Origin: Actinomyces weissii | Lineage (GTDB): Bacteria; Actinomycetota; Actinomycetes; Actinomycetales; Actinomycetaceae | DNA length: 64,000 nucleotides | Direction: 5' to 3' | NCBI RefSeq assembly: GCF_016598775.1 | Contig: NZ_CP066802.1 | Span: forward strand, 1,054,001-1,118,000 | Shown: positions 28,407 through 34,396 of the stretch, one piece after another | Numbering within the stretch: the first letter of the stretch is position 1 | Layout: each line of letters begins with the position of its first letter | Notes under the pieces: model-generated | What the model was told of the DNA's origin: nothing | What the model saw: the letters and a program-made list of their open reading frames with translations, nothing else | The model's database searches: none | Made by a program: the position numbers and the translations under genes

Positions 28407-29048
28407 ATGCGCTCGCTCTATGGCTTGAAGCACTGGTACACGCGCCGTCTCGGCTTCCTGGTGCAGGCCTCCGTGCGCCGTGGGATCAGCCCGGACCTGT
28501 GGACGGTCGTCGGGGTGGCCGCCGGGGCGCTGGGGGCCGGGGCCGTGGCCCTGGGCTGGTGGCCCGCCGCCTTCGTCCTGCTGGCTGCCCGCCTGGGCGG
28601 GGCGAACCTCGACGGCGCCGTGGCCCGCGCCCGGGGCGTCTCCCGCCCCTTCGGCTTCGTGCTCAACGAGCTCGGTGACCGCCTCTCGGACCTGCTGATG
28701 ATGGCGGGCCTGGTGTGCCTGGCCTGGCGCTCCGGCCCCGCCGGTTCCCCGGTGCTGCTGCTGGTGGCTACGGTGGCCGCCACCCTGCCCACCTTCGTGT
28801 CCCTCAGCGCCGCCGGGGCCGGGGCCCCGCGCCTGAACGGCGGGCCGGTGGGCAAGACCGAGCGCTGCCTGCTGGCCGTGTTGGCCGCGGCCCAGCCCGC
28901 CTGGCTGCTGGTGATCGGCTGGGTGATTATCGTCGGCTCCCTGCTGACCGCCACCGTGCGCCTGCTGCGCACCCGGGCGGCCCTGGCCGCCCCGGGCGGC
29001 GCCAGCCCTCAGGCCACCCCGGCCGGGACCGCCCCCGCAGCCCGCTGA
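28407..29048 (+). CDS. CDP-alcohol phosphatidyltransferase, YnbA-like
   Basis: The 213-residue membrane protein has the family signature LDGAVARARG followed by FGFVLNELGDRLSD. Two of the four acidic positions of the usual D-x2-DG-x2-AR-x8-G-x3-D-x3-D signature differ: the first is Ala and the third is Asn. E. coli YnbA, as I recall it, shares the NALDG and LNETGD pattern, so this looks like a subfamily trait, not decay. It would exchange CMP of a CDP-lipid for an unknown alcohol. It is followed by YnbB-like and YnbC-like genes. The start is a leaderless-type ATG. Confidence 0.8.
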   Translation: MRSLYGLKHWYTRRLGFLVQASVRRGISPDLWTVVGVAAGALGAGAVALGWWPAAFVLLAARLGGANLDGAVARARGVSRPFGFVLNELGDRLSDLLMMAGLVCLAWRSGPAGSPVLLLVATVAATLPTFVSLSAAGAGAPRLNGGPVGKTERCLLAVLAAAQPAWLLVIGWVIIVGSLLTATVRLLRTRAALAAPGGASPQATPAGTAPAAR

Positions 29049-29057
29049 GGAGAGACC

Positions 29058-29969
29058 GTGACTGCCGTTGTGCCTGCCGGACTGCTGGACTGGCTGCTCT
29101 CCGGGCAGCGGGACTGGACCCTGCGCCTGCCCGTGCTGGACCTGGTGCTGACCGGGCGGGCGGTGTTCCTGGCGGCGGTGGCCCTGGCCGTGCTGCTCCT
29201 GGCGGGCATCGGCGTGGCCGCCTCCGGCAGCACCGAGCTGCGACGGCGCTGGACCACCTGGGCGGTCATCATCCCCGCCGTCGGCATACCCATCTGGGTA
29301 GGCAGGGGCACGACGGCGGTGCTGGCGGCCCTGCTGGCGCTGCAGGCGGTGCGGGAGCTGGCGGCCATGGTCCGCCTGCCGCGGCCCGAGACCCTGCTGC
29401 TCTACCTCCTGGCGGTGGCCTACCCGCTGGCTGCCTGGCTGCGGCCTGGCCTGCTGTCCCTGGCCCCCGTGCTGGTGCTGGTCTGCGCCCTGCCAGCCGT
29501 TCTGGCCGGGGACGTGGCCGACGGCCTGCGGCGGGCCAGCCTGACCGGCTTCGCCTCGGTGTGGATCGCCTGGTCCCTGTCGCACCTGGTGGTGCTGTGG
29601 CAGGACGCCTTCCTGATCGCCTTCGCCGCCTCCGCCGCGGACGTGGCGGCCTGGTGCGGCGGCACCGGCCTGCGCCGTTTCTCCTGGGCCCGGCGGCCGC
29701 TGTCCCCCCTGTCCCCGAACAAGACCGTAGGGGGCCTGGTGGGGGCGGTTGTCGGCGGGATGGCGGTGCTGCTGCTGCTCGGGCACCTGAGCCCCGGCTA
29801 CGCCGTCGCGGTGGCCTTGGGCGGGGTGCTGGGCGACCTGCTGGAGTCGCTGGTCAAGCGCACTAGCGGGGTCAAGGACGCAGGCAGCTGGCTGCCGGGC
29901 TTCGGGGGGCTGCTGGACCGTATCGACTCACTGCTGCTCGTACTGCCCCTAGCCGCTGTGCTGGGCTGA
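29058..29969 (+). CDS. CDP-diacylglycerol synthase-like protein, YnbB-like
   Basis: The 303-residue protein with about eight membrane helices ends with the cytidylyltransferase signature: SPNKTVGGLVGAVVGG, then GDLLESLVKRTSGVKDAGSW, then LPGFGGLLDRIDSL. The canonical LPGHGG has Phe instead of His here. The reaction would be phosphatidate plus CTP to a CDP-lipid, supplying the adjacent phosphatidyltransferase. The GTG start follows AGGAGAG. Confidence 0.85.
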   Translation: MTAVVPAGLLDWLLSGQRDWTLRLPVLDLVLTGRAVFLAAVALAVLLLAGIGVAASGSTELRRRWTTWAVIIPAVGIPIWVGRGTTAVLAALLALQAVRELAAMVRLPRPETLLLYLLAVAYPLAAWLRPGLLSLAPVLVLVCALPAVLAGDVADGLRRASLTGFASVWIAWSLSHLVVLWQDAFLIAFAASAADVAAWCGGTGLRRFSWARRPLSPLSPNKTVGGLVGAVVGGMAVLLLLGHLSPGYAVAVALGGVLGDLLESLVKRTSGVKDAGSWLPGFGGLLDRIDSLLLVLPLAAVLG

Positions 29970-29986
29970 GAAACATAGGAGACCAG

Positions 29987-31309
29987 ATGGGTGACAGGAC
30001 CGTGGACACTGAGGCCGGACCGGCGGCGCAGGCAGGCCCTGCACCAGGGGGACTGGTCGGCACCCTCAGCAGCGAGCTGGGCCGGGCAGGGCGGGCGCTG
30101 CGCTCGGTGGTGCGCACGCCCGCCAAGGTGACCTGGCGGGCGGTGGCCCGCCAGTGGATCTGGTCCGCCGTGATCTGGCCCTTCGGCGGGGTGCGCGTGG
30201 AGGGGGAGTTCGACGACGCCGGGCCCTACGTGGTGGTGGCCAACCACGGCTCGCACGCGGACACGATCGCCATGATGAGCGCCTCGCCCACCATCATGCG
30301 GGTGGTGACGGTGGCCGCCCAGGACTACTGGTTCACCCGCCGCTCGCGCCGCCTGGTGGCCCGGGGCCTACTAGGTGCCTACCCGGTGCGCCGCGACGGC
30401 GAGGGGGCCTACGAGGAGCTGCGCGGGGAGCTGGCCAACCGGGTGGCCGAGTCCATGAGCGTGCTGATCTTCCCTGAGGGCACCCGCAGCCGCGACGGGC
30501 AGCTGGGCCGCTTCCACACGGGCGCGGCCCGCCTGGCCCGGGACTTCGGGATCCCGGTGCTGCCGGTGGCCCTGGTGGGCAGCCGGGAGCTTCTGCCCAA
30601 GAAAGGCAGCCTGCCCCGCTACTCGCCGGTGGAGGTACGGGTGGGCGAGCCGATCGCCCCGGACGCCGACGTGGAGGCAGTGACCCAGGCGGCCCAGGCG
30701 CAGGTACAGGCCCTGCTGGACCGGCCCCGCCGTCCCTTCCCGGTCTCGGACGTGCACACCGTGGCCGCCCAGGCCCTGGCGGGCTGGCGCGGCGACGCCG
30801 TCATGTTCACCTGGGGCCTGGCGGAGGCGCTGTCCTTCCCGGTGATGGCGGAGATGAGCCAGGTCTGGCTGGGGGTGACCCAGCCGCGCCTGCTGTGGCG
30901 GCGTGGGGCGGCCGTGGTGGCGGGCTCTGTCACCGGGGTGGCACTGGGGCACCTGCTGGCAGCCGGCGGGGTGCGGCTGCCCGCCCCCTGGACCACCCCC
31001 GCCATGCGCCAGGCGGTCAGCCGCTACCTGGCGGACGGGCCGCGCGGCTACTGGCAGCAGGCCCTGACCGGCGTCCCCGTCAAGCTCTTTGCTGCCGAGT
31101 CGGGTCGGCGCGGGCTGCCGCTGGGCCCGGTGCTGGCCCACGCGGCGGGGGAGCGGGCCGCCCGCATGGCCGCCTCCACCGCCGTCCTGGTGGTGGCGGA
31201 AAAGCCCCTGGGGAACCTGGTACGCCAGCACTTCGGGGCCTACCTGGTGGGCAGCGGGCTGCTGTTCGGGGTGCTGCTGCGCCAGGTCGTGCGCCACTGG
31301 GAGCGTTGA
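29987..31309 (+). CDS. PlsC-type acyltransferase with extra C-terminal membrane domain
   Basis: The 440-residue protein has a PlsC domain at about residues 75-250, with the NHGSHAD catalytic box (H87, D92) and FPEGTRS (162-168). It continues for about 190 residues with several hydrophobic segments unrelated to PlsC, including VTGVALGHLLAAGGV and LVGSGLLFGVLLRQVV. It follows the CDP-lipid synthase gene by 17 nt, so all three genes are likely co-transcribed. Acyl donor and acceptor are unknown. The C-terminal domain is not recognised. Confidence 0.82.
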   Translation: MGDRTVDTEAGPAAQAGPAPGGLVGTLSSELGRAGRALRSVVRTPAKVTWRAVARQWIWSAVIWPFGGVRVEGEFDDAGPYVVVANHGSHADTIAMMSASPTIMRVVTVAAQDYWFTRRSRRLVARGLLGAYPVRRDGEGAYEELRGELANRVAESMSVLIFPEGTRSRDGQLGRFHTGAARLARDFGIPVLPVALVGSRELLPKKGSLPRYSPVEVRVGEPIAPDADVEAVTQAAQAQVQALLDRPRRPFPVSDVHTVAAQALAGWRGDAVMFTWGLAEALSFPVMAEMSQVWLGVTQPRLLWRRGAAVVAGSVTGVALGHLLAAGGVRLPAPWTTPAMRQAVSRYLADGPRGYWQQALTGVPVKLFAAESGRRGLPLGPVLAHAAGERAARMAASTAVLVVAEKPLGNLVRQHFGAYLVGSGLLFGVLLRQVVRHWER

Positions 31310-31442: not shown

Positions 31443-31787
31443 GTGAGCAACTTGTCTGTCAGTACCCTGGTGCTCCACCTGGAGCAGGCAGACCCCGCCT
31501 CCCTGGACGACGCCGAGCTGGTTGAGCGTCTGCTCCTGGAGATCGCGCAGGCGGTAGGGCTGCACGTGGTGGCCAGCACGAGCCACCGTTTCACGCCGCA
31601 GGGTCTCAGCGCCGTGCTGCTGCTCGCGGAGTCCCACGTGGCGGTGCACACCTGGCCGGAGGAGGCTGGCGCCTACCTGACCCTGACCACCTGCGGCCCG
31701 CTCGGGGCAGAGGCGGTCAGCACGGTCGAGAGCCTGGTGACGGCGGCCCTGGGCGGCCGGGTGCGCACGGAGCAGGTGCGTCTGTGA
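31443..31787 (+). CDS. speD: S-adenosylmethionine decarboxylase proenzyme (SpeD)
   Basis: The 114-residue small class 1B AdoMet decarboxylase generates the aminopropyl donor for polyamines. The self-cleavage and pyruvoyl site is the ESH motif E63-S64 in LLAESHVAVHTWPEE, with H69 and C84 (TLTTCGP) as expected catalytic residues. GTG at 31443 follows a TATGCT box at leaderless distance. The end overlaps the DUF4178 gene by GTGA. An aminopropyltransferase lies three genes on. No ornithine or arginine decarboxylase is in the window. Confidence 0.94.
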   Translation: MSNLSVSTLVLHLEQADPASLDDAELVERLLLEIAQAVGLHVVASTSHRFTPQGLSAVLLLAESHVAVHTWPEEAGAYLTLTTCGPLGAEAVSTVESLVTAALGGRVRTEQVRL

Positions 31788-32545
31788 GCGGGGTCAAGGC
31801 CAAGCTGCAGGTCGGCAGCGTCGTCGAGGGCGAGCAAGGCCCCCTGCACGTGCGCGGCTACCTCCTGTTCAAGGAGTGGGACCAGGAGGACGAACGCTTC
31901 TACATGTGGGAGGAGTGGCAGCTCCAGGGGGCCGCAGGCAACGAGCTGTGGCTGGAGCTCGACCACTACAGCGGTGACGTCGTCCTCTACGAGCCGTTGC
32001 CGCTAGCACCCGGACTTAACCCGGCCATCATGGCCCCCGGCCGGGTCTTTGAGCTCAGCTCACCCACCGGGCCGGTCTCGCTCAAGGTGAAGTCCATGAG
32101 CCAGGGGGTCCTGGTGGAGTCACAGGGGCAGACCACCTGCAGCCTGCGTCCAGGCGAGACCATGGGCTACGCCGAGGTGAAGGTGCGCACCGCTGACGGC
32201 AAGAGCTTCAAGGCCACGGTTGACAGCCACCGCCTGGCCGACACGGTGGTCTACCGCAGGCGGCGGCTGGGCGCGGCGGAGCAGAAGGCGCTGCTGGGCC
32301 AGGTCATCCGCCGTCCCCGGTCCGGGAGGCTCAAGGTGAACCGTACGGGCTTCATCATCGTGCTGGTTCTCTTTCTTACGCTGCATGTGGTGCCTGCGCT
32401 GCTGCGGAGGCTCTTCTCCGGGCCGAGGAGGCCCCCCTCAGGCTCCAGCACCAGCTCCGGCACTGGCAGCGGCAGCGGCAGCGGAGGAACGAGCTACCGC
32501 CCGCGTCCGGTCTACGGCGGTGGCGGCCGAGGAGTAGGAAAGTAA
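31784..32545 (+). CDS. DUF4178 protein with C-terminal membrane anchor
   Basis: The 253-residue protein has an N-terminal beta-rich DUF4178-like domain (GSVVEGEQGPLHVRGYLLF, YMWEEWQLQ), a possible second beta domain (about 80-180), one membrane helix near residue 190 (FIIVLVLFLTLHVVPALL) and a Gly/Ser-rich tail. It is translationally coupled to speD by a GTGA overlap. DUF4178, DUF350 and spermidine-synthase-like genes are known to cluster. The biochemical role is not established. Confidence 0.8.
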   Translation: MSGVKAKLQVGSVVEGEQGPLHVRGYLLFKEWDQEDERFYMWEEWQLQGAAGNELWLELDHYSGDVVLYEPLPLAPGLNPAIMAPGRVFELSSPTGPVSLKVKSMSQGVLVESQGQTTCSLRPGETMGYAEVKVRTADGKSFKATVDSHRLADTVVYRRRRLGAAEQKALLGQVIRRPRSGRLKVNRTGFIIVLVLFLTLHVVPALLRRLFSGPRRPPSGSSTSSGTGSGSGSGGTSYRPRPVYGGGGRGVGK

Positions 32546-32567
32546 GGCTGTGAAGGGAGCCGAGCTG

Positions 32568-32813
32568 ATGCTGAACATGGTTATGTCTGCTAGCGCAGGC
32601 GGAGGACTGGACGCCACCACCATCCTGGCGACGGTGGTCTACGCCGTGCTGGGCATGGTGCTGCTGCTGGTCTTCGCGGTGCTGGCCTCGGTGCTGCTGC
32701 GCCTGGACCTGCGCCGCGAGCTGGTGGAGGAGAACAACCCGGGCCTGGGCACCGCCTTCGCCGGGGTGGCGGTGGCCATCGCCATCATTATCGCCGCCAC
32801 GATTGTCGGCTGA
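32568..32813 (+). CDS. DUF350 small membrane protein
   Basis: The 81-residue protein has two hydrophobic segments (ATILATVVYAVLGMVLLLVF and AFAGVAVAIAIIIAATIVG) separated by RRELVEENNPGLGTA, the typical DUF350/YjfL charged linker. ATG at 32568 is chosen because AAGGGAG lies 8 nt before it; GTG at 32550 is an alternative. It sits between the DUF4178 and aminopropyltransferase genes. Confidence 0.82.
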   Translation: MLNMVMSASAGGGLDATTILATVVYAVLGMVLLLVFAVLASVLLRLDLRRELVEENNPGLGTAFAGVAVAIAIIIAATIVG

Positions 32814-32866
32814 GGACGTGCCGTACGCGGTCCCCCTGGCACACCGGGTGCCGGGGGTGAGGGCCT

Positions 32867-34396
32867 GTGCCTAGGGCCCAGATCTCCAAGCGGCGGGAGA
32901 ACGCGGCCCTGTTCACGGCCGCCCTGCTGGCAGCGGTAGGCGGCCTGGTCTACGAGCTGGTCCTGGGCACGGCCGCCTCCTACCTGGTGGGAGACTCCGT
33001 GCTGAGCTTCTCCCTGGCCACCGGCATCACCCTGTTCGGCATGGGCCTGGGTTCCTTGCTGGCGCCGCGCCTGCGGTGGGAGCCCGCAACGGCCTTCGCC
33101 GTCAACGAGATCCTGCTGGGCCTGCTCGGCGGAAACTGCGTGCTGCTGCTCTACGTGGCCTACGCCCGCCCGCAGTCCTACTGGCTGGTGTTCGGGGCGG
33201 TCAGCCTGGTGATAGGGGTGCTGATCGGGCTGGAGATCCCCCTGCTGCTGCGCACCTTCGACCAGCTGGGCCGCCCTTCCAGCGTGAGGCTCCTCAGCCA
33301 GGTGCTGGCTCTGGACTACTTTGGCGCGCTGGTGGCCGCGCTGGTCTTCCCCCTGGTGCTGCTGCCGGAACTGGGTCTGGTACGCGGCACCTACCTGGTG
33401 GGGGCGGTAAACGTCGTCGTGGCCCTGGTGGTGCTGGCGCAGGTGCGGGCCCGACGTCGGGTGCTGGTGGCTGCGGCGCTGGCGGCGGCCCTGCTGGTGG
33501 GACTGTTCACCGGGGCCTCCCAGCTGGAGCGGCAGGTCGGCTCCATGGCCTACCAGGACCCGGTGATCCACTACCAGCAGAGCGCCTACCAGCAGATCGT
33601 GCTGACCCGCTACCACCAGGACCTGCGCCTGTACCTCAACGGCCAGCTCCAGTTCTCCAGCCTGGACGAGGCCCGCTACCACGAGACCCTGGCCGGTGCG
33701 GCCCTGTCCTCCGTGGCCCGTCCCCGGGACGTGCTGGTCCTCGGCGGCGGGGACGGCCTGCTGGCGCGCGAGCTGCTGCGCTGGCCGGAGGTGGAGACGG
33801 TGACCGTGGTGGACATAGACCCGGCGGTCACCCAGCTGGCCCGCTCCAGCCCGCCGGTGCGTGAGCTCAACGGGGGCTCCCTGGACGACCCCCGGGTGCA
33901 GGTGCGCAACGAGGACGCCTTCACCATGACGGCGCAGGGCGCGCAGGCCTACGACGTGGTGCTGATCGACCTGGTGGACCCCTCCAACGAGCGCCTGGCC
34001 AAGCTCTACTCGGTGGAGATGTACCAGCAGGTGGACCGTCTGCTGCGGCCCGGGGGAGTGCTGGTCACCCAGGCGACCTCCTCCTTCTTCTCCCCCAACG
34101 CCTTCGCGGTGGTCGCCTCCAGCGTGGCCGCCGCCATGCCCGACGCCTCCGTCCTGCCCTTCACGGTGAACGTGCCCTCCTTCGGTGAGTGGGGCTTCGT
34201 GCTGGCCACCCGGGACCGGGGGCAGGTGCTCAGCCACAGCCTGCCGCAGGGGCAGCGCTACCAGACCCTGGAGCGGCTGCGCCTGGAGATGCTGGACAGG
34301 CCCCCGGTGCTGCCGCCGGCCGAGCCCTCGACCCTGCTGCGTCCCCGGGTGGTGCAGGTCTACAACGAGGACATGCGCCAGTGGCGCTACTACTGA
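32867..34396 (+). CDS. speE: Membrane-fused polyamine aminopropyltransferase
   Basis: The 509-residue protein fuses about seven N-terminal membrane helices (residues 12-215) to a C-terminal spermidine synthase domain. The latter has FSSLDEARYHETLAGAAL, VLVLGGGDGLLARELL, VTVVDIDP and YDVVLIDLVDPSN. It would transfer aminopropyl from decarboxylated AdoMet to a polyamine, perhaps at the membrane. It is the last gene of the speD-DUF4178-DUF350-speE set. A GTG start is assumed at 32867. Confidence 0.9.
   Translation: MPRAQISKRRENAALFTAALLAAVGGLVYELVLGTAASYLVGDSVLSFSLATGITLFGMGLGSLLAPRLRWEPATAFAVNEILLGLLGGNCVLLLYVAYARPQSYWLVFGAVSLVIGVLIGLEIPLLLRTFDQLGRPSSVRLLSQVLALDYFGALVAALVFPLVLLPELGLVRGTYLVGAVNVVVALVVLAQVRARRRVLVAAALAAALLVGLFTGASQLERQVGSMAYQDPVIHYQQSAYQQIVLTRYHQDLRLYLNGQLQFSSLDEARYHETLAGAALSSVARPRDVLVLGGGDGLLARELLRWPEVETVTVVDIDPAVTQLARSSPPVRELNGGSLDDPRVQVRNEDAFTMTAQGAQAYDVVLIDLVDPSNERLAKLYSVEMYQQVDRLLRPGGVLVTQATSSFFSPNAFAVVASSVAAAMPDASVLPFTVNVPSFGEWGFVLATRDRGQVLSHSLPQGQRYQTLERLRLEMLDRPPVLPPAEPSTLLRPRVVQVYNEDMRQWRYY

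Follow-up and report, generated by a model that had tools for sequence, protein, structure and literature searches.

Clusters that combine an S-adenosylmethionine (AdoMet) decarboxylase, an MFS/spermidine-synthase fusion and a DUF350 protein were reportedly described by Li et al. (2019, Biochem J), who are said to have proposed an acceptor other than putrescine and to have named none. We have analysed a cassette of this kind in Actinomyces weissii, at positions 31443-34396 of a window of 64,000 nucleotides (the window being the whole stretch analysed, 1,054,001 to 1,118,000 of contig NZ_CP066802.1). Its four genes all lie on the + strand in the order speD, DUF4178-type gene, DUF350 gene and membrane aminopropyltransferase gene; SpeD, the membrane-fused aminopropyltransferase and the DUF350 protein presumably make it a polyamine-independent AdoMet decarboxylase cluster in the sense of Li et al., to which the lysine-ended tail of DUF4178 or DUF4247 proteins is our addition. 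On balance, the sequences lead us to favour a membrane system that modifies a protein tail, in which the aminopropyltransferase would modify the terminal lysine of the anchored tail. The operons of Ravi 2024 (PMC11237479) bring the same protein families together as the window does: 7TM-spermine-synthase, DUF350 and DUF4178, with variants that include an AdoMet decarboxylase and a DUF4247-DUF2617 variant, the main variant having PspA and CesT/Tir; an earlier note on this DNA had likewise remarked that comparable neighbourhoods exist. Ravi 2024 offers two possible roles, the monitoring of polyamines and "aminopropylation of other substrates"; in the sections of that article drawn on here the tail is not mentioned, and the word "lysine" is absent from its main text (PMC11237479). 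The cassette clusters are already in print, and the C-terminal lysine tag is what is added here; in the portions of the literature consulted we found no description of the lysine tail or of a cassette shared by Actinomyces and Saccharibacteria.

More distant systems help to place the proposal. The triamine/agmatine aminopropyltransferase of Thermus thermophilus (1uir, 3anx) is a soluble enzyme that makes free polyamines and is not known to have a tail partner. Deoxyhypusine and hypusine are formed on the cytosolic factor eIF5A by transfer of an aminobutyl group from spermidine to a lysine side chain; the modification proposed here would likewise extend a lysine side chain by an aminoalkyl group, but it would be an aminopropyl group from decarboxylated AdoMet, on an anchored tail and by a different enzyme. 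E. coli has two comparable arrangements, ygiBC and yjfKLMC, in each of which a DUF1190 protein with a Gly-Gly end stands beside a peptide-spermidine ligase; the yjf operon also includes a DUF350 protein. These systems share with the window an anchored partner with a low-complexity C-terminus, a polyamine-type enzyme and, in yjf, DUF350, but they join an ATP-grasp-type ligase (PMC11237479) to a Gly-Gly end, whereas the window joins an aminopropyltransferase to a Lys end. We propose the terminal lysine as acceptor because here, as in E. coli, the residue that ends the anchored partner suits the reaction of the enzyme encoded beside it.

The DUF4178-type protein (253 aa; 31784..32545, + strand) consists, by alignment, model and hydropathy, of an N-terminal beta domain, one membrane helix, an unconserved linker and a conserved C-terminal tail. 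The helix (residues 187-211; 32342..32416, + strand), placed by AlphaFold2 secondary structure and hydropathy, lies towards the C-terminus and agrees with the membrane anchoring claimed in the earlier note; the tail (residues 241-253; 32504..32542, + strand), delimited by alignment and by its pattern, ends in the proposed acceptor lysine. A Gly-rich tail with a terminal lysine is present in all 43 non-redundant DUF4178 partners found by tblastn, counted after removal of window duplicates, re-fetched copies (L065-L070, L072-L075), sequences more than 85% identical and the tail-less paralog L013_1775 of genome G180. Across these 43 sequences R241, G250 and K253 never vary, and the five best-conserved 13-residue segments all fall at the tail, past a linker that does not align. 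Tail-bearing rows span Actinomycetaceae, Cellulomonadaceae, Promicromonosporaceae, Propionibacteriaceae, Acidimicrobiales and Saccharibacteria/Patescibacteria. Within the genus, the DNA pattern GGxG[VLI]GK-stop was found in 20 of 49 genomes, all of them among the 21 that have speD, and in none of the 28 others; the 21st speD genome is G152. All 32 matches of the pattern lie at the cassette, and the same pattern read backwards gave 4 matches in the 49 genomes.

The gene set is conserved together with the tail. When reference genomes were scanned with the enzyme, 42 loci emerged, and their neighbours were sought by tblastn with the window proteins: speD was found in 40, DUF4178 in 41, DUF350 in 37 and all four genes in 35, or in 36 once a further DUF350 (L045) had been detected by HMM. 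The association of the four genes is far beyond chance, and the conservation in relatives on which the earlier note had made its case depend was indeed observed. DUF350 may be dispensable, since six of 11 genomes (G152, G156, G195, G196, G199 and G201) gave no match genome-wide, the completeness of the locus-derived ones not being given. Viral contigs yielded no relative.

The membrane-fused, speE-like aminopropyltransferase (509 aa; 32867..34396, + strand) was identified by NF002956, profile searches and an AlphaFold2 model. With 534 bits against the NF002956 cutoff of 472 and an N-terminal membrane part by hydropathy, the sequence is classed as a membrane polyamine aminopropyltransferase. 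The same evidence upholds the fusion to membrane helices described in the earlier note; its count of seven is likely, hydropathy and loop charge both fitting it, but is not proven, because the model draws residues 139-192 as one continuous helix. The aminopropyltransferase domain (residues 228-504; 33548..34378, + strand), defined by alignment and structural matches, contains Y271, H272, D296, D368, D371, Q402 and F439 G440 E441 W442, and in structural comparison it matches spermidine and agmatine aminopropyltransferases, the matches shown not covering the membrane part. D296, D368, D371 and Gln402, which we take to be catalytic residues of spermidine synthase, are invariant or nearly so. Because the domain matches aminopropyltransferases and keeps these residues, the enzyme should transfer an aminopropyl group.

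The catalytic residues, together with the polyamine names borne by TIGR03330 and NF002956, would also suit a membrane-tethered spermidine synthase engaged in ordinary spermidine synthesis, a reading that we consider improbable. The PTY motif of the soluble spermidine synthases aligned is replaced by PSFGEW in the window enzyme; the motif of tail-linked enzymes was set as P[ST]FG[DEN]W, widened from [DE] since L100 has Asn. Furthermore, the fusions studied by Li et al. reportedly produced no spermidine and did not complement. As to diamine supply, the only PF02784 protein of the source genome (2.56 Mb, one contig) is LysA (TIGR01048, 328 bits; cutoff 297.9), and five of the six enzyme-bearing Saccharibacteria genomes have no PF02784 protein, other decarboxylase folds not having been searched in either case. 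Among the genes called around the cassette there is no diamine-producing enzyme, as the earlier note had remarked.

SpeD (114 aa; 31443..31787, + strand) scores 82.1 bits with PF02675 and 76.9 bits with TIGR03330 (cutoff 75.65), and its alignment to 1tlu sets the predicted pyruvoyl serine S64, with H69 and C84, on S63, H68 and C83 of T. maritima SpeD, which are respectively the pyruvoyl serine, the processing histidine and the catalytic cysteine (PMC10407285). By these residues and family scores it is classed as a class 1b AdoMet decarboxylase proenzyme; the conserved processing residues cannot decide for or against a neofunctionalised SpeD (ornithine or arginine decarboxylase), which would supply a diamine. 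The genome encodes one PF02675 protein and one PF01564 (Spermine_synth) protein, both inside the cassette. Across the order speD is rare, occurring in one of 149 genomes, the source genome itself, and in the genus it occurs in 21 of 49. The speD and DUF4178-type genes overlap by 4 bp (GTGA, 31784-31787); this overlap makes the translational coupling asserted in the earlier note plausible.

In the mechanism that we propose, SpeD would, judging by its conserved residues, cleave itself and make decarboxylated AdoMet, and the aminopropyl group would be attached to the DUF4178-type protein, at the side-chain amine of its C-terminal lysine. The product would be N-epsilon-(3-aminopropyl)lysine, giving the flexible glycine tail a side chain that resembles spermidine. 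An active site of the spermidine synthase type could use lysine because its side chain has the aminobutyl end of putrescine; in one study agmatine was also accepted by 17 of 18 bacterial spermidine synthases (PMC11107197). DUF350 would be an accessory membrane subunit, missing from some cassettes, and the cationic tail might act at the envelope, for example as a ligand of an anionic lipid or polymer, or as a gauge of donor supply. The earlier note had envisaged modification of a lipid, peptide or diamine at the envelope: an acceptor other than putrescine is supported, and among these three the sequences speak most for a peptide, namely the tail that ends in Lys. The terminal lysine offers one named residue for mass spectrometry, where the substrate of these clusters is not settled in the literature; if the proposal is true, it would represent a new class of bacterial protein modification and explain what SpeD is for in genomes possibly devoid of spermidine synthesis.

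Conserved C-terminal peptides are often binding signals, and the tail could instead be a docking, sorting or sensing element that regulates or recruits an enzyme making a small product, either a polyamine or an aminopropylated metabolite. This is unlikely in our judgement, yet the ordinary spermidine synthase residues are kept and G152 has the enzyme and SpeD with no tail. A docking tail, however, need not end in a residue able to act as acceptor, nor need it recur on different carriers with differing sequence before the Lys, and such recurrence was observed. PF13785 was detected in 9 of the 296 Actinomycetota genomes searched; at six of these nine loci it is not the DUF4178 protein but one of its neighbours that bears the tail, ending in GGTK, GDGK or GTGK. 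Ten such neighbours were checked, and all match DUF4247, nine of them over the cutoff. In plasmid-borne relatives the carriers of the Lys end are small proteins with a single helix or a lipobox in Novosphingobium (...GYTGPSHK), Burkholderia (...YSSYGSHK), Ensifer (...GGGPESGK), Tritonibacter (...YLNSNRVK) and Gemmatirosa (...ARFRHGK, found in a gap where it was sought); large lipoprotein-like proteins carry it in Alteromonas (...NRGPSSGK) and Desulfobacula (...GGGPKARGK).

We also applied a carrier rule: a frame with a hydrophobic segment that ends in Lys and has G, S, T or A in at least half of its last 14 residues. It was satisfied in 39 of 57 cassette rows and in none of 21 control loci, the controls being shorter overall (87 kb against 666 kb); of the remaining cassette rows, eight have a Lys tail missed by the rule and ten have none. 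The 57 rows were drawn from 78 cassette loci (22 of 42 from the reference scan, L071, all 10 plasmid loci, 17 of 18 actinobacterial loci and all 7 of a further set), leaving out close relatives, the window itself and the short loci (3 kb) from the genus search, with five places counted twice. Among 289 greedy open reading frames, 15 end in Lys, and at least eight of these are carriers. Taken more broadly, a widespread hypusine-like modification on the C-terminal lysine of glycine tails, with several carriers and a cassette passed between oral Actinomyces and Saccharibacteria, is a tentative reading that we place a little short of an even chance.

Several observations weigh against modification of the tail lysine: (i) A comparison of charges puts the tail of DUF4178 outside in 38 of 38 proteins, the window protein doing so weakly (+6 against +4); with the tail outside, the enzyme would have to be outside too, or to act before export. 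(ii) The seven-helix charge pattern would put the catalytic domain outside, away from the cytosolic donor, so that an exported donor would be required, and the continuous helix 139-192 of the model does not settle the side on which this domain lies. (iii) The tail is missing from the G180 paralog and from the database protein P0142, whose C-terminus diverges, and the genus genome G152 (L143) has speD adjoining speE with neither DUF4178, DUF350 nor tail. (iv) Several of the small carrier proteins were chosen by their terminal Lys, and the carrier rule also picked three non-carrier frames in cassette rows. (v) The tail accompanies 11 of the 19 actinobacterial places that exceed the NF002956 cutoff and is absent from the other eight. 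(vi) Only two of the ten tail-bearing actinobacterial genomes other than the source genome have a class 1 SpeD, so that the donor in the other eight may be something else.

Absence of the tail refers to about 1.5 kb on either side in seven of the eight places and to a 12-kb stretch in the eighth. The eight tail-less enzymes all fall within a single family; G713, a genome of that family, has a tail-bearing system as well. Among the six that were aligned (the active-site alignment is without L104, L111 and the second G713 place), Gln402 is replaced by His or Arg and P[ST]FG[DEN]W is lost. Our reading is that these enzymes diverged and lost the tail substrate, but a separate function is equally conceivable. 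As regards SpeD, the tail-bearing systems with the enzyme comprise G637 and G818, on the one hand, and G660, G681, G734, G788, G706, G746, G860 and G713, on the other, these last being the eight of ten without a class 1 AdoMet decarboxylase. Class 2 (PF01536) gave no match in 11 genomes, nor in the control genomes, and is therefore uninformative.

Saccharibacteria live on Actinomyces cells, and a cassette common to both would, if our reading is true, link the host genus biochemically to a group parasitic on its surface. In a sample of 392 genomes, taken from the class to which one Saccharibacteria genome belongs, the enzyme was found in 6, with 50-64% identity (49-64% by tblastn), and one copy lies on a 702-kb contig titled chromosome. 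GC content is 0.35-0.55 for the Saccharibacteria cassette stretches and 0.71-0.73 for those of two Actinomyces. In the tree Actinomyces is nested among Saccharibacteria and other rows, while a single Saccharibacteria clade was not rejected by the AU test (p 0.405); tree and test do not fix the direction of transfer. The earlier account mentioned neither this occurrence, nor the tail, nor the cassettes lacking DUF350.

Directly upstream of speD and on the same strand, at 28407-31309, lie genes for a CDP-alcohol phosphatidyltransferase, a CDP-DAG synthase and an acyltransferase. Their position suggests aminopropylation of a phospholipid head group, which we consider very improbable: these genes were detected near the cassette in one of the 42 speE loci (L024, with fragments of all three) and in none of the other 41, and a lipid acceptor deduced from this non-conserved neighbourhood was rejected.

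The two-helix DUF350 protein of the earlier note (87 aa; 32550..32813, + strand) matches the first half of the PF03994 profile with 42.3 bits (cutoff 26), and all four genes stand where that note had placed them. The 253-aa protein has no Pfam match of its own; its DUF4178 label is given because relatives match PF13785 (8 of the 38 homologues in the alignment do so at E up to 1, the best 1.1e-12). For the DUF4178-type fold no PDB match was better than E 0.2; a search with the single sequence found only the near-identical P0121, and a search with the alignment listed 25. The Actinomyces oris/naeslundii-type loci examined have two diverged DUF4178 copies around speD. On an Alteromonas mediterranea plasmid (L093) the order is speE, speD, hypothetical protein, toxic anion resistance protein, DUF4178, large lipoprotein-like protein and DUF350, and a Rhodovulum plasmid (L094:5932-6636) has a short speE-like gene with no cassette genes annotated around it. 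Finally, L047, titled Sphaerisporangium cinnabarinum, is probably mislabelled: its speE shares 98.8% identity with a protein of Cellulosimicrobium aquatile and falls in the Cellulosimicrobium group.
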